Assembly: GCA_029820995.1 (NCBI GenBank)
Contig: JALGUG010000016.1
Span: 1 to 35,539 of the forward strand
DNA: 35,539 nt
Source: Candidatus Zipacnadia bacterium
GTDB lineage: Bacteria > Armatimonadota > Zipacnadia > JALGUG01
Reading direction: 5' to 3'
Shown here: positions 25,847 through 35,119 of the stretch, in pieces
Layout: every line of letters begins with the position of its first letter
How positions within the stretch are numbered: position 1 is the stretch's first letter
Notes under the pieces: generated by a model
The model's database searches: none
The model's input: the letters and a program-made list of their open reading frames with translations, nothing else
What the model was told of the DNA's origin: nothing
Program-made: the position numbers and the translations under genes

Positions 25847-27778
25847 ATGAGACTGCTGAACCGTGTGCTGACGGTGCTAATCGCCTGCGGCGTTGCAGCC
25901 GCAGGTGTTGTTTGTGTCCAGCGACTGGGGGCCGAGCGACGCAGTGGAGCGGTTGAGATAGTGGTGGACTATCCGGAGGCGGTGGCGCTGGCGGCAGCGA
26001 GCGGGGAGGATGTGGTGACGATACTGCGGGCCCTGAAGGCCGCGGGCGCGACGGGCGTGGCGATCTACGAATCGAGCCTGCAGGATCTGCTGGCTGAGGG
26101 ACGGGTGCGTCTGGCGCCGCCGACAGGCGCCGATGTTCCGTCGGGGACCGTGGTGGTGGATGCCAGGGAGCTGTCGGCTCAAGTGACGGCGCACGTGCGG
26201 GCGAAGGTTGGACCCTGCGAGATCATGCTGCGAAACCCGGACCTGGTGCGCATCCCGGCGCGAGCGCTGACGATCCCGAACCTGACCGTGGGGTACGATC
26301 CGGGCACGGTAATGCAAGTGCTCCAGAGCGATCTGACCGTGATCGCTCGGCCATCGGTGGCAGAGGTGCGGACGCGAGCCGCGCTGCAGCTCGCGGTTGA
26401 CGAGGCGGCCGCCACAGGAGCCCAGCAAGTGGTGTTCGCCGGGCCGGCGGTCCTGGGGTACCGGGAGCTAATCCCCGAGGCGGCGGAGATGCTGAGCAAG
26501 GCAGGGTTGACGTACTGCTCGGTGGAGTTCGGTAGACAGCTTGGCGAGGGTGCGCTGGGGCGCAGGCTCAAGGGTCGGCTGTTGCGGCTGCACAGCATCA
26601 ACGAGAATGAAATGCCGACGATGACGCCGCCGAAGGCGGTGGAACGGTTCGTTCGGGCTGTTCGGGAGCGGAACATTCGCGTTTGCTACGTGCGGCTGTT
26701 CCTGGAGGCCGTGAAGCAGCCGCTGGAACAGAACAAGCAGTTCATCTCAGCGATTTCCGGGCGTCTGAGTGCGGTGGGCTTCGCGGTCGGGACTGCCAGG
26801 CCGCTGGAGGCCTTCGGTGGGAGCGCTGCACGCTATCTGCGGACCATCGCAGGCGTGGGCGCGGCGGCGGCGGGCGTGTACCTGCTGGTATTCCTGTGGC
26901 AGGTGTCCGTCTGGTGGGGATGGAGCCTGTTGCTGATCGGCGCGGCGCTCGCCACAGTGGGGCAGGTGGCGGAGTTAGGCAACGTGAGCAAGCTGTTGGC
27001 ACTGCTGGCAGCGGTCGCCATGCCGACGCTGGGCCTGGCAACACTGCGGCTGGGAATGGAGCCCTTCGCTGAAACGTGGTCCGGGGCCTTGGGGCGTGGG
27101 CTGCGCGCGTTTGTGCTGTGCACGGCGTTGAGCCTGGGCGGTGCAGTGCTCGTAGCCGGCCTGTTGGGCGAGCTGCCCTTCATGGTGGGACTTGACCAGT
27201 TCAGAGGCGTCAAGATAGCACAGTTTCTGCCTCTGCTGGCAGCAGCCGCGATCTATCTGGGTCGCCCCCCAGGAACTGGGCGGAGCCACCCGTTCGGCGA
27301 TTACGTGCGACGATGGCTGGATGCGCTTCGGCAAGCGGTGCGATACGAGCACGCGGTCATCCTGGTGCTGGCTGTGGTGGCCCTGGCGCTGTTGGCCATT
27401 CGGTCGGGCAATGAGCCGGCAATCGGTGTGACGGGCGCGGAGCTCCGGTTTCGCAGCTTGCTGGAGCGGCTCTTGGTGGTTCGGCCAAGGACGAAGGAGT
27501 TCCTGATCGGCCACCCGCTGCTGATTGTGGGCCTGGCGCTGGCGGCGCGGGGGCAGGTTCGGGGGCTGTGGTGGTGCCTGGCGCTAGGGGGCATTGGACA
27601 GGTCTCGATGGTCAACACGTTCTGTCATCTGCATACGCCGCTGATGGTGTCAGTCATGCGTACGGGGCACGGGTTATGGATGGGGGCGGCGTTGGGAGCG
27701 GCGGCCACCGGGGTGTGGATTGGGTGGCTGGGGCCATGGCTGCAGCGGCTGGGTGAGGGCGGTGCGGGGCGCGGTTGA
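25847..27778 (+). CDS. DUF5693-like membrane protein
   Basis: N-terminal TM, soluble domain VEIVVDYPEAVALAAASGEDVVTILRALKAAGATGVAIYESSLQDLLAEGRV..., then multiple C-terminal TM helices; FLIGHPLLIVGLAL, GQVSMVNTFCHLHTPLMVSVMRTGHG. Confidence 0.7.
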   Translation: MRLLNRVLTVLIACGVAAAGVVCVQRLGAERRSGAVEIVVDYPEAVALAAASGEDVVTILRALKAAGATGVAIYESSLQDLLAEGRVRLAPPTGADVPSGTVVVDARELSAQVTAHVRAKVGPCEIMLRNPDLVRIPARALTIPNLTVGYDPGTVMQVLQSDLTVIARPSVAEVRTRAALQLAVDEAAATGAQQVVFAGPAVLGYRELIPEAAEMLSKAGLTYCSVEFGRQLGEGALGRRLKGRLLRLHSINENEMPTMTPPKAVERFVRAVRERNIRVCYVRLFLEAVKQPLEQNKQFISAISGRLSAVGFAVGTARPLEAFGGSAARYLRTIAGVGAAAAGVYLLVFLWQVSVWWGWSLLLIGAALATVGQVAELGNVSKLLALLAAVAMPTLGLATLRLGMEPFAETWSGALGRGLRAFVLCTALSLGGAVLVAGLLGELPFMVGLDQFRGVKIAQFLPLLAAAAIYLGRPPGTGRSHPFGDYVRRWLDALRQAVRYEHAVILVLAVVALALLAIRSGNEPAIGVTGAELRFRSLLERLLVVRPRTKEFLIGHPLLIVGLALAARGQVRGLWWCLALGGIGQVSMVNTFCHLHTPLMVSVMRTGHGLWMGAALGAAATGVWIGWLGPWLQRLGEGGAGRG

Positions 27779-27803
27779 CGCCGCCGGTGGGGCGTGGTAT
27801 ACT
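27775..27803 (+). promoter_or_regulatory. sigma70-type promoter upstream of gap
   Basis: TTGACG (27775-27780), 17-nt spacer, TATACT (27798-27803), extended -10 TGg. Confidence 0.75.
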
Positions 27804-28015
27804 GCGCCTCGTCGCTCAGAGGCCGGAAACAGCACGGATAACGGCGGGTCCCCAGGGCAGTGAAGTCGGGGACGGTTTGCCCCACGAGTCGCAGCCCAAA
27901 CCTCCGATACGTGTGTTTTTCTTTGAACGGCCGCACCAGGACAGGTCGGTCGTACGCGGGCCTGGCCTCGGCGGGTGTATGTTGTGCAAACTGTCGTCTC
28001 CGGGAGGGAGCTACC

Positions 28016-29032
28016 TTGGCAGTGAAGGTTGGGATCAACGGTTTTGGCCGGATCGGTCGGCAGAGCTTTCGGGCCATGCGGGAGTACTATGGGAACAGCA
28101 TTGAGGTCGTGGCGGTCAACGACCTGACGGATGACGAGACATTAGCTCATCTGCTGAAGTATGACAGCAACTACGGCAAATATGAGGCGAAGATTGAGGC
28201 GAAGTCCGGCAAGATCAGCGTTGACGGCCACGAGATGGTGAGTTTGGAGGAGCGCGATCCGTCGAAGCTGCCGTGGAAGGACCTGGGTGTGGAGATAGTG
28301 CTCGAGTCCACGGGGTTTTTCCGCGATGAGGAGAAGGCGGGGCTGCATTTGAAGGCCGGCGCCAAGAAGGTGATCATCAGCGCGCCAGCCAAGGGCGAGG
28401 TTCAGACGCTGGTACTGGGCGTCAACGACGAGGCTTACGACCCGCAGAAGCACAATATCGTATCCAATGCGTCCTGCACGACGAACTGCCTGGCGCCGGT
28501 GGCGAAGGTGCTGCATGACTCGTTCGGGATCGTGCGCGGGCTGATGACGACGATCCACTCGTACACGACGGACCAGAACCTGCTCGATGGTCCCCACAAG
28601 GACCTGCGCCGGGCGCGGTCTGCAGCGTTGAACATGGTGCCGACCTCGACGGGGGCGGCTGCCGCGATTGGGCTGGTGCTGCCGGACCTGCAGGGCAAGC
28701 TGGACGGGATCGCGATCCGGGTTCCGACGCCGACGGTATCGGTGGTGGACCTGGTATGCGACGTGAAGAAGTCCACGACGACGGAGGAGCTGCTGGCGGC
28801 GATGAAGGCGGCTGCGGCCAAGGGGCCGCTGGCGAAGTATCTGGAGATTGCGGAGGAGCCGCTAGTGTCCATGGACTTCAAGGGGAACCCGCATTCCTCG
28901 ATATTCGATGCCGAAAAGAGCTGTGTGATTGACGGGACGCTGGTGAAGGCACTGGCTTGGTATGACAACGAGTGGGGATATTCGTGCCGCATAGCCGACT
29001 TGATTGATTTCATGGCCAAGAAGGGCCTCTGA
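28016..29032 (+). CDS. gap: Glyceraldehyde-3-phosphate dehydrogenase, type I
   Basis: [21 protein letters not shown]..., [28 protein letters not shown]. Likely TTG start at 28016 after gggaggga; the ORF-track N-terminus (27860) is unlikely. Confidence 0.96.
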
Positions 29033-30425: not shown

Positions 30426-31241
30426 ATGCGGACACCGATTATTGCCGGCAACTGGAAGATGAACTGCACGTTGGACGAGGCCCAGGCGTTGGCCTCGGGG
30501 GTCGTGGCGGAATTGGAGGAGCCTCTGTGCACGCAGGTGGTGGTATGCCCGCCCTTCCCGTGCCTGGAGGCGGTGCACCAGATCATCGCCACCTCGGGCG
30601 TTGCGCTGGGCGCACAGAACATGTTCTGGCGAGAGTCGGGCGCCTATACCGGCGAGGTCTCGCCGGCGATGCTGACCAGCGTGGGCTGCCAGTACGTGAT
30701 TATTGGGCACTCGGAGCGGCGCGGCCGGTTCGGCACAGTGGAAGAAGGCATGACCGAAGGCCTGCTTAAGGTGTTCGGCGACAACGACGAGACGGTGAAT
30801 ATCAAGGTGAAGGCGGCGTTCAAGCACGACCTGACGCCCATCGTGTGCGTGGGTGAGCTGCTGGCCGAGCGGGAAAAGGGGCTGACGGACGCGGTGGTGC
30901 GAGATCAGGTTTTCGCGGCGTTGGAGGGGCTGGATGCGGCGCAGGTGGCAACAATGGTGTTCGCGTACGAGCCCGTGTGGGCGATCGGAACCGGGGAGGT
31001 GTGCGAGGCGGAGGAGGCCGACCGGGTCTGCAAGGTGATTCGGCAGGCCGTAGGTAGCAAGGTGAGCGAGGAAGCAGCACAGGCCATGCGCGTGCAGTAT
31101 GGCGGGAGCGTCAAGCCGGACAACGTCGAGGGGCTGATGCGACAGCCGGACATTGACGGCGGTCTAGTGGGCGGCGCCTCGCTGAAGGCCGGCGATTTCG
31201 TGACGCTGGTCGAGGCTGCGGGCCGGATCAAGTGCGGTTAG
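30426..31241 (+). CDS. tpiA: Triosephosphate isomerase
   Basis: MRTPIIAGNWKMNCTLDEA; IIGHSERR; FAYEPVWAIGTGEV; RVQYGGSVKPDN; GGLVGGASLKAGDF. Confidence 0.97.
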   Translation: MRTPIIAGNWKMNCTLDEAQALASGVVAELEEPLCTQVVVCPPFPCLEAVHQIIATSGVALGAQNMFWRESGAYTGEVSPAMLTSVGCQYVIIGHSERRGRFGTVEEGMTEGLLKVFGDNDETVNIKVKAAFKHDLTPIVCVGELLAEREKGLTDAVVRDQVFAALEGLDAAQVATMVFAYEPVWAIGTGEVCEAEEADRVCKVIRQAVGSKVSEEAAQAMRVQYGGSVKPDNVEGLMRQPDIDGGLVGGASLKAGDFVTLVEAAGRIKCG

Positions 31242-31248
31242 GGCGCGC

Positions 31249-31277
31249 TTGACAAGGCCCCGGCGAGGCGATATACT
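31249..31277 (+). promoter_or_regulatory. Near-consensus sigma70 promoter upstream of ffh
   Basis: TTGACA (31249-31254), 17-nt spacer, TATACT (31272-31277). Confidence 0.8.
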
Positions 31278-31288
31278 CCGGCCACTGA

Positions 31289-31345
31289 GGGCGGCTCTGC
31301 TGTCTCCCGCCGTTCCGGAGAACTGATGGAGCCGCCGCGTTTTTT
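31289..31345 (+). terminator. Intrinsic-terminator-like hairpin between promoter and ffh (attenuator or sRNA terminator)
   Basis: GGCGGCTC (31290-31297) pairs perfectly with GAGCCGCC (31329-31336), followed by gcg and TTTTTT (31340-31345); nested GTTC-CGGA-GAAC hairpin. Confidence 0.65.
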
Positions 31346-31365
31346 GATGCCTGAGGTGCAAGGGC

Positions 31366-32703
31366 ATGTTCGAAACCTTAACGGAGCGGCTTCAGACGGC
31401 GTTCAAGCGCCTGAGCGGAAAGGGGCTGCTGCGCGAACGAGACCTAAAGCAGGGCCTAAAGGAAGTTCGGTTGGCCCTGCTAGAAGCTGATGTCAATTAT
31501 CGCGTAGTCAAGGACTTCTGCCGTCGAGTGGAGCAGCGGGCTCTGGGGTCGGACATTCTCAAGGGGCTCAATCCGACTGAGCAGGTGGTCAAGACCGTAC
31601 ACGAGGAGCTGATCCACCTGTTAGGGGACGAGCCGGTGGGCATTGACTTCTCGGGCGATCCGCCGGCGGTGGTGATGCTGTGCGGCCTGCAGGGCACCGG
31701 AAAAACGACCTCGTGCGCGAAGTTGGCCTTGCGCCTGCAACGGCAGAACCGCAAGCCGCTGCTGGTAGCGGCCGACATCTACCGGCCCGCGGGCATCGAG
31801 CAGCTTCAGACGGTGGGAGAGCAAGCGGGCATTGAGGTGTTCTCGCTGGGGCAGCAGCCTCCGGTGGAGATCGCGCGGGGAGCCGTGACGCACGCTCGGA
31901 ACCGACAGCTTGATACGGTAATACTTGACACGGCCGGACGCCTGCACATTGACGACGAGATGATGCAGGAGTTGGAGCAGATTCAGGCGGAGATCGAGCC
32001 GCAAGAGGTGCTGCTGGTCGTTGATGCCCAGACCGGTCAGGACGCAGTGAATGTAGCGGAGACCTTCGGGTCACGACTGCAGCTTGACGGGGTGATCCTG
32101 ACCAAGCTGGACGGTGATGCGCGGGGCGGGGCGGCGCTGTCGGTGCGGGCGGTCACGGGCAAGCCGATCAAGTTCGTGGGCATCGGTGAGAAGCTGGAGG
32201 CGCTGGACGTTTTCCACCCGGATCGGATGGCGTCGCGCATTCTGGGGATGGGCGACATCCTGAGCCTGATCGAGCGGGCACAGGAGACGGTTGATCAGGA
32301 GAAGGCGCAGAAGCTACAGAAGAAGATCCTGAGCGCACAGTTCAACCTGGAGGATTTCCGCGATCAGCTTCGTGAGGTCCGCAAGATGGGCCCGTTGACG
32401 CAGGTGTTGGGCATGATGCCGGGCGCCAAGGAGCTGGTGGGGCAGATGCCCTCCGAGGTGGACGAGCGAGAGCTGGACGTGGTGGACGCAATCATCAACT
32501 CGATGACGAAGGATGAGCGGCGCGACCCGGATCTGCTCAACGGCAGCCGGAAGCGTCGTATTGCGCGAGGCAGCGGCACCAGTGTGCAGGACGTCAATGT
32601 GGTGCTGAAGCAGTATCGGGAGGCACGGAGGCTGATGAAAGGCTTGACCGGGGGCCGGAAGGGCAAGATGCCGCCGATGAGGCTGCCGCGGTACGGGCCG
32701 TAG
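31366..32703 (+). CDS. ffh: Signal recognition particle protein Ffh
   Basis: GLQGTGKTTSCAKLALRL, DTAGRLHIDDEMMQEL, TKLDGDARGGAALSVRAVTGKPIKFVGIGEK, Met-rich M domain. Confidence 0.98.
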   Translation: MFETLTERLQTAFKRLSGKGLLRERDLKQGLKEVRLALLEADVNYRVVKDFCRRVEQRALGSDILKGLNPTEQVVKTVHEELIHLLGDEPVGIDFSGDPPAVVMLCGLQGTGKTTSCAKLALRLQRQNRKPLLVAADIYRPAGIEQLQTVGEQAGIEVFSLGQQPPVEIARGAVTHARNRQLDTVILDTAGRLHIDDEMMQELEQIQAEIEPQEVLLVVDAQTGQDAVNVAETFGSRLQLDGVILTKLDGDARGGAALSVRAVTGKPIKFVGIGEKLEALDVFHPDRMASRILGMGDILSLIERAQETVDQEKAQKLQKKILSAQFNLEDFRDQLREVRKMGPLTQVLGMMPGAKELVGQMPSEVDERELDVVDAIINSMTKDERRDPDLLNGSRKRRIARGSGTSVQDVNVVLKQYREARRLMKGLTGGRKGKMPPMRLPRYGP

Positions 32704-32768: not shown

Positions 32769-33065
32769 TTGGCTACTAGAATCAGATTGCGGCGCATGGG
32801 CGCCAAGAAAAAGCCATTCTACCGGATAGTCGTCGCTGAGGCGTCGGCGCCCCGTGACGGGGGATTCATCGCAACGCTCGGGTACTACGATCCGGGAACG
32901 GACCCTCCGACCGTGGAGGTGAACACGGAGGAGGCGTTGCAGTGGCTGGATCGTGGAGCCAAGCCAACGGACACGGCGCGGTCTCTGCTGCGCCGCGCCG
33001 GGGTTTTGAAGGTTCGGCACGAACGACGGAAGTCGGGCGGCGCGCCGGTCGAGAGCGGGGAATGA
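32769..33065 (+). CDS. rpsP: 30S ribosomal protein S16
   Basis: (TTG)ATRIRLRRMGAKKKPFYRIVVAEASAPRDGGFIATLGYYDP. Confidence 0.96.
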   Translation: MATRIRLRRMGAKKKPFYRIVVAEASAPRDGGFIATLGYYDPGTDPPTVEVNTEEALQWLDRGAKPTDTARSLLRRAGVLKVRHERRKSGGAPVESGE

Positions 33066-33068
33066 GTG

Positions 33069-33299
33069 ATGAAGGAACTGGTTGAGTACGTGGCCAGGGA
33101 ACTCGTGGACCAGCCGGACCAGGTGCGGGTAGCGACGAGCGAGACGCCGACCGGGATTGCGTACGAGCTGCACGTGGCGGAGGAGGACCTGGGCAAGGTG
33201 ATCGGGAGGCAAGGGCGGATCGCCAATGCGTTGCGCGCTTTGGCCAAGGCGGTGAGCGCCAAGAGGAAGAAGCGCTGCACCGTGGAGATCATCTCATAA
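33069..33299 (+). CDS. khpA: KH-domain RNA-binding protein (KhpA/YlqC)
   Basis: MKELVEYVARELVDQPDQVRV...VAEEDLGKVIGRQGRIANALRALAKAVSAKRKKRCTVEII; KH GxxG; position after rpsP. Confidence 0.93.
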   Translation: MKELVEYVARELVDQPDQVRVATSETPTGIAYELHVAEEDLGKVIGRQGRIANALRALAKAVSAKRKKRCTVEIIS

Positions 33300-33353: not shown

Positions 33354-33839
33354 GTGGCCAAGATCACGATACGCAGACCGGTATTTGTGACTGCGATCAT
33401 GACGCCGGATCTGCGCAATGAGCTTGCGCAGGAGTTGCAGGCGGCGGCGGACGAGGTGGATCGCCGGAATGATCAACTGGAGTTCGAGGCAAAACGGATA
33501 CTCGGCCAGAACCGGGACCTACAGCAGGCCATGGCCATTCGCCAGCGAGTGGAGCAAGAGAAGCAGCGGCAGCAGGCCTTGAAGGACGAGATTTTGAAGC
33601 GGCGCGATGAGGTGCTGGCCCTGGAAGACGGCGCTGAGGTATTGCGTGATACCGTGGAAGGCTTGGTGGAAGTGGGCGAAGGCGATCACCTCGATGAGAT
33701 TCTGGCCGGGGCGGAGATCGTGGTGAAGGACGGGGTGGTGACGGAGGTTCGTGAGCGCCGGCAAGAGGCCGCGGAGCGGGTGGATCTGTCGGCGGCAGAG
33801 CCGCGTCGAGTGATTAGGCCCGATCAAACGAATGAGTGA
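33354..33839 (+). CDS. ylqD: YlqD-like coiled-coil protein
   Basis: (GTG)AKITIRRPVFVTAIMTPDLRNELAQELQAAADEVDRRNDQLEFEAKR...; same position between ylqC and rimM as in B. subtilis. Confidence 0.75.
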   Translation: MAKITIRRPVFVTAIMTPDLRNELAQELQAAADEVDRRNDQLEFEAKRILGQNRDLQQAMAIRQRVEQEKQRQQALKDEILKRRDEVLALEDGAEVLRDTVEGLVEVGEGDHLDEILAGAEIVVKDGVVTEVRERRQEAAERVDLSAAEPRRVIRPDQTNE

Positions 33840-34359
33840 CGCGGAGGAGTTTGAGTTGGCGGTGGGCGTTATCGTCCGGCCGCACGGCGTTCGGGGAGAA
33901 GTACGAGTGCGGCCGACGACCGATCGTCCAGAGGTCTTTGACAAGCTGGAGGAGGTGCTGGTGGGGCGCGCCGGGCAACCGTCGCGGCGGCTGAGGATCG
34001 AGGGGGCCCGCATGCACCAGGGAGTAATCCTGGTGAAATTCAAGGGGATAGACGACCGCGAGGCGGCAGAGGAGCTCCGCAGCGCAGAGCTGTGCATTCG
34101 GCGAGCGGACAGCGTCCCGTTGAAGCCCGACGAGTTTCTAGTGGCTGACGTGATCGGCCTGGAAGTGGTGACGACCCAGGGCGAACGGGTTGGGCCGGTG
34201 CTGGAAGTGCTGGCGACGGGCGCCCACGATGTCTACGTAACTGAACGTGGGATGATCCCTGCGGTGTCGGAGTTCGTGAAAGAGATTGACCTGGCGGGCG
34301 GGAAGATGGTGATCGAGCCGCAACCGGGTTTGCTGAAGGGTTTCGGGGGCGATGAGTGA
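33832..34359 (+). CDS. rimM: 16S rRNA processing protein RimM
   Basis: [27 protein letters not shown]...; [64 protein letters not shown]. Confidence 0.95.
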
Positions 34360-35119
34360 GCAGCCGGGCCCCTTGTTGAGCGTGAAGATCGTCACGATCT
34401 TTCCCGAACTGGTGTCGGGCGCTCTGGACTACAGCATCGTGGGGCTAGCTCGCGAGCGGGGCCTGGTGGAAGTGATAGTGCGCAATCTGCGCGATTTCAC
34501 CACGGACCGGCACCAGGTGACAGACGATTACCCGTTCGGCGGGGGCGCGGGGATGGTGATGAAGGTAGAGCCGCTGGTTGCGGCAGTGGAGGCGCTGCAG
34601 GCGGAGGGGCCCGACAGCCCGGTAATCTTCTTCACGCCACAGGGAGAGCCGCTGAAGCAGGCGTTGGTGCAGGAGTTGGCGGAGCAACCGTCGCTGATCT
34701 TGATCTGCGGACGGTACGAGGGCGTAGACGAGCGATTTCGGCAGGGCTGGGTGACGCGAGAGATTTCATTGGGCGATTACGTGTTGAGCGGGGGTGAGTT
34801 CCCGGCGCTGGTGCTGGTGGAGGCGATGGTGCGATTGCTGCCGGGCGCTCTGGGCAACGAGGCCTCGAGTCAGGAAGAATCCTTCACATCGGGGCTGTTG
34901 GACTATCCGCATTATACTCGGCCGCGTGAGTTTCGCGGAAGGATGGTTCCGGAGGTACTTCTTTCGGGGCATCACGAGAACATCCGTCGCTGGCGGCGGA
35001 AACAGGCGCTGCGACGGACAAGGGAACGGCGTCCCGACTTGCTGGCGAAGGCTAACCTGGGCGAGGAGGACGCCGAGCTCCTGGCCGAGTTGGAAGAGGA
35101 AGATGACGCATGGACCTGA
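34352..35119 (+). CDS. trmD: tRNA (guanine37-N1)-methyltransferase TrmD
   Basis: [109 protein letters not shown]. Confidence 0.98.

Follow-up and report, generated by a model that had tools for sequence, protein, structure and literature searches.

One known leader of the type considered here is the rimP-leader, a conserved bare terminator with no visible antiterminator in most species, for which the authors inferred a terminator-recognising protein and named NusA as the first candidate (Naville and Gautheret, 2010; PMC2965389). In Alphaproteobacteria, a single covarying hairpin upstream of ffh has been reported as the ffh motif, and its transcripts were found among small RNAs (PMC2704228); the gap between dapF and ffh is the predicted site of the S. 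meliloti candidate sm5, which is listed with a sigma-70 promoter (PMC2573895). For E. coli, a 2024 review stated that there was no information on the regulation of the trmD operon (PMC10931766), and the 5′ end mapped at -34 (PMC2760140) falls within the hairpin located between ffh and rpsP. Leaders of the terminator type are thus known as a kind; one ahead of an ffh operon in Armatimonadota is apparently undescribed in the open-access literature checked.

The locus analysed here lies in a 35,539-nt stretch of Candidatus Zipacnadia bacterium DNA (the window), in which a promoter and a terminator-like hairpin precede ffh. The rimP-leader is its nearest precedent, since both have a bare terminator, here a predicted one, in the leader of such an operon, which for the rimP-leader encodes translation and transcription factors. 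The two differ in that the rimP-leader precedes rimP-nusA-infB and carries a conserved GGGc...gCCC stem, whereas the ffh leader has neither this gene context nor this stem, its own stem varies by family, and it matched no Rfam leader family. With the alphaproteobacterial ffh motif it shares a single hairpin directly upstream of ffh; the motif, compared by description, belongs to another phylum and is a hairpin whose bulge carries two nearly invariant cytosines. As far as described, the Armatimonadota leader works like this motif, which is a likeness of type and not a claim of homology. For the E. coli trmD operon (rpsP-rimM-trmD-rplS), the MG1655 ffh-rpsP gap (L293 4687-4940) likewise contains a hairpin of terminator type, CCGGACTCC...GGGGTCCGG and then TTGTTTT, but this one stands before rpsP and behind ffh, not ahead of ffh, and could be the terminator of ffh. 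One leader hairpin of the class (G024, GACCGGAC...GTCCGGTC-TGTTTT) resembles it. Homology to the E. coli hairpin was rejected, as sequence likeness to the class hairpins was near chance with G024 excepted.

The original prediction had described a promoter, an RNA start near 31284, a hairpin closed by gcgTTTTTT and a 20-nt gap to ffh, and all of these matched the DNA base for base; the operon it had named, ffh-rpsP-khpA-ylqD-rimM-trmD-rplS, agreed with Pfam for all seven genes (SRP54, S16, KhpA, YlqD, RimM, TrmD and L19). The features are collected in Table 1. The -35 hexamer TTGACA (31249-31254) and the -10 hexamer TATACT (31272-31277) are separated by a 17-nt spacer, and the hairpin begins about 6 nt past the predicted start. 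It is 47 nt long, with an outer stem of the 5′ arm GGCGGCTC (31290-31297) and the 3′ arm GAGCCGCC (31329-31336) and an inner stem around TCTCC/GGAGA. Three bases, GCG, separate the 3′ arm from TTTTTT, and 20 nt lie between the T-run and the ffh ATG (31366). With its 3′ end predicted near 31345, the leader RNA would be some 62 nt long.

Table 1. Features of the ffh leader and operon in the window, with the basis of each assignment
Feature	Position	Strand	Basis
Sigma-70-type promoter TTGACA-N17-TATACT	31249..31277	+	read directly; same type recurs before ffh in relatives
Predicted transcription start A	31284	+	inferred from promoter position, 7 nt past the -10 hexamer
Terminator-like hairpin	31290..31336	+	direct reading, folding, stem/T-tail score, counterparts in relatives
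T-run TTTTTT	31340..31345	+	direct reading; T-rich tails behind hairpins of most relatives
Likely ffh ribosome binding site GAGGTG	31353..31358	+	direct reading
ffh, signal recognition particle protein	31366..32703	+	Pfam SRP54, SRP54_N, SRP_SPB
rpsP, ribosomal protein S16	32769..33065	+	Pfam; behind ffh in relatives
khpA, KH-domain RNA-binding protein	33066..33299	+	Pfam; kept in relatives
ylqD	33354..33839	+	Pfam; kept in relatives
rimM	33832..34359	+	Pfam
trmD	34352..35119	+	Pfam
rplS, ribosomal protein L19	35110..35463	+	Pfam

When a terminator sits some 55 nt past the promoter that feeds it and no further promoter follows, the arrangement amounts to an attenuator. On the sequence evidence we therefore regard the module as probably (about two chances in three) a promoter-proximal intrinsic terminator serving as a transcription attenuator of the predicted kind for the seven-gene operon. 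The promoter is followed by a G+C-rich hairpin and a U-run, all ahead of the first gene, and no further promoter was found between terminator and gene; the weakness is the 3-base GCG spacer, which should weaken termination in the window. An alternative antiterminator fold, a mark of the classical form only, was not found. RNA polymerase would start near 31284, complete the hairpin in the first 55 nt or so, and then either stop in the U-run near 31345 and release the leader RNA or read through into ffh. Termination at the hairpin would thus occur in vivo, and the fraction of readthrough would set the output of the operon. Such a terminator would yield both alternatives of the original prediction, namely attenuation and a discrete short RNA. 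Tuning would come from a protein or from the state of the polymerase itself and not from a leader-encoded antiterminator; by analogy, the hairpin may be read by NusA, a general factor, or by one of the operon's own products (KhpA, S16, L19 or Ffh). A constant attenuator, which merely lowers output, is an equally plausible alternative to a regulated one.

TTGACA-N16-18-TATAMT had a single match in the window, against none expected from 100 shuffles, and the ffh promoter was the top-scoring promoter site of the whole window. The fold of the 65-nt leader RNA (-25.3 kcal/mol, z -1.68) was not exceptional by itself, because in such G+C-rich DNA 14 of 200 shuffles folded equally well. A stock terminator scan of the window did not report the ffh-leader hairpin, presumably owing to the length and interruptions of this hairpin and to the three bases between stem and T-run. 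We used a combined score of hairpin stability and T-tail, with home-made scores and thresholds, which gave 11.98 for the window leader; none of 40 shuffles of the same leader scored as high. The window alone would not settle the matter, and the better-than-chance status of the element rests mainly on its recurrence in relatives.

The window genome belongs to the Zipacnadia/WS1-type class of Armatimonadota, with 46 genomes in the collection, and is the sole member of its family there; the genomes are drafts, and relatives of one family are not independent of each other. When the ffh promoter was sought by a fixed search in the 39 class genomes with usable upstream DNA, matches of at least 10/12 were obtained in 37 (all except G007 and G034) and of at least 11/12 in 36, nearly all of them TTGACA with TATACT. 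The combined score of the 37 class ffh leaders averaged 8.88, as compared with 3.54±0.79 for shuffled leaders, and the highest mean among 40 shuffle sets was 5.52. A score of at least 8 was reached by 27 of the 37 leaders (10.4 expected), leaving about a quarter below 8, and several (G002, G016, G022, G023 and G027) had poor T-tails or no call.

The same data bear on a second reading, in which the hairpin is a non-terminating, structured 5′ UTR of the ffh mRNA that acts on stability or translation, for instance as a protein-binding or RNase site. It would suit the 2-3 nt that separate stem and T-run both in the window and in several relatives, the interrupted T-runs (TTTTTGTTG), and a possible outer stem enclosing both hairpin and T-run in two families (permutation fraction 0.023 in f5 and 0.011 in f6). 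However, most of the hairpins are followed by T-rich tails, stem and T-tail jointly score far above shuffles, and the outer stem around the T-run was unsupported class-wide (permutation fraction 0.12). We consider this reading rather unlikely.

Covariation, proposed as a check in the original prediction, supported the hairpin in three families of relatives. In families f5, f6 and f9, whose hairpins follow the pattern GGCCGGATC...GGTCCGGCC, covariation scored 0.286 against 0.211±0.026, with 2 of 500 shuffles as high and lower values at every other register. The window hairpin's own sequence is beyond the reach of close covariation, being from the only genome of its family. Stem sequences vary between families (GCCGCC/GGCGGC, GCGCCGG/CCGGCG, GGGGCCGG/CCGGCTCC and others), and across families the arms paired better with their own partners than with permuted ones (0 of 3000 permutations as good), a test biased by the hairpins having been hand-picked for pairing; the stem and T-tail shuffle test is free of such choice. 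No conserved antiterminator was found in the class leaders: ahead of synthesis of the 3′ arm, 5′-arm pairing was 0.64 against 0.56 in shuffles. A transient hairpin of -12.3 kcal/mol was predicted in the window's own leader. SD-like starts occurred in 12 of the 37 class leaders, with no shared position or sequence that would indicate a leader peptide. In the window, the 3′ portion of the hairpin contains an ATG with GGAG ahead of it (31326-31345); the frame of this ATG enters ffh out of phase and has no counterpart in relatives.

The module might instead be a self-contained small RNA gene, complete with promoter and terminator, the product acting in trans and ffh lying merely downstream. A separate RNA some 50-80 nt long is indeed predicted, the alphaproteobacterial ffh motif transcript is among small RNAs, and sm5 was predicted in a comparable place, between dapF and ffh. 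This reading is made quite improbable by the position of the module, which is always before ffh, and by the lack of an ffh promoter behind it: in none of the class genomes tested did the stretch from hairpin to ffh contain a promoter scoring above 8/12, so that transcripts from the leader promoter reach ffh only by readthrough. The hairpin sequence also varies by family, and in a covariance-model search for second copies in the class the source ffh leaders stood out, while the other hits were generic terminator-like stems and none was convincing.

Several identities of the leader RNA were rejected. No covariance-model match to SRP RNA was found in the leader, and an ordinary SRP RNA (77 bits) is encoded elsewhere in the genome. 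An SRP mimic was likewise discarded, with the pairing of leaders with the SRP loop at the edge of shuffles (-24.62 vs -23.34±0.61). Known riboswitches and r-protein leaders gave no Rfam match, even at relaxed thresholds.

As a control, the combined score was obtained for 52 hits at TTGACA-N-TATAMT promoters of three class genomes. Their mean was 3.65, similar to shuffles, and the set contains a few duplicates and one ffh leader (G011), which makes it slightly conservative. The terminator-like excess is therefore specific to ffh compared with other strong promoters. At another strong promoter of the window's genome (L201, G000 C253:12550-12872, reverse strand), a perfect hairpin GCGGCTC...GAGCCGC was seen within 30 nt, followed by ATTTTC, just before an apparent tRNA gene.

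Outside the class, an ffh promoter of the same type was found in 47 of 60 sampled genomes from other Armatimonadota classes. After this sample was enlarged by seven, 33 leaders of at least 50 nt had a mean score of 6.86 against 2.79±0.68 for shuffles, and 18 of them reached at least 8 (6.3 expected); in 21 of the 54 other Armatimonadota with the promoter, leaders were shorter than 50 nt, and no hairpin was sought or found there. On these counts, the module is widespread yet patchy across Armatimonadota. For 77 ffh loci from other phyla there was little excess (2.7 vs 1.5). Chance, by which hairpins form anywhere in G+C-rich DNA and the T-run is accidental, could account for the modest z-score of the window fold and for the silence of the stock scan, but it is contradicted at the class level by the ffh-specific excess over shuffles, which extends through the phylum, and we regard it as very improbable.

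The genes upstream of ffh were compared as well. In the window, the ffh promoter is preceded by the co-directional tpi, the last gene of gap-pgk-tpi, which ends at 31241; among the class relatives compared, Tpi was found upstream of ffh solely in the window's genome. Co-directional ribF takes this place in several relatives, and in five (G004, G019, G023, G042 and G044) the upstream gene is divergent, with products including a PKD-domain protein, a type IV pilin-like protein, SPOR, MttB and an ABC ATPase. Downstream, S16, KhpA and YlqD follow ffh in class relatives wherever the sequence extends far enough. That the hairpin merely terminates the upstream gene or operon (here gap-pgk-tpi) and happens to sit behind the ffh promoter would fit the co-directional tpi and ribF, but it is hardly credible, since in the five relatives with a divergent gene promoter and hairpin are kept in the same order and the hairpin cannot be that gene's terminator. 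The promoter-hairpin module is thus tied to the ffh operon and not to the upstream gene. With upstream genes that vary or diverge and no promoter behind the hairpin, RNA made from the ffh promoter has to pass the hairpin, which supports the original proposal of a terminator between its own promoter and ffh.

The ffh/trmD cluster is widespread, and a recurrent predicted terminator that separates its first gene from the only promoter visible offers a specific and testable site, in a phylum for which transcript data are scarce. As an attenuator, the leader would couple protein targeting in a simple manner to the maturation of ribosomes and tRNAs. It also joins the rimP-like class of leaders, in which a terminator is present without a recognisable sensor. 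A wider proposal, which we hold only tentatively and consider doubtful as a whole, is that these leaders form an undescribed, phylum-wide but patchy family of bare terminators read by a trans-acting protein, possibly KhpA, S16, L19 or Ffh, with feedback coupling the output of the SRP protein to that of ribosome maturation. If the trans-acting protein were real, feedback would control an operon for which, even in E. coli, regulation is reported to be unknown.

A second leader in the window was observed ahead of gap. The region 27775-28021 contains TTGACG-N17-TATACT, which resembles a promoter and has TG just ahead of its -10 element; the gap leader, with a likely start at about 28022, is longer than 200 nt and contains GTTTTTCTTTG. 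It gave no Rfam match, and no similar DNA was found in 45 class relatives. Further upstream of gap-pgk-tpi, positions 25847-27778 encode a 643-aa protein with a full-length DUF5693 match.
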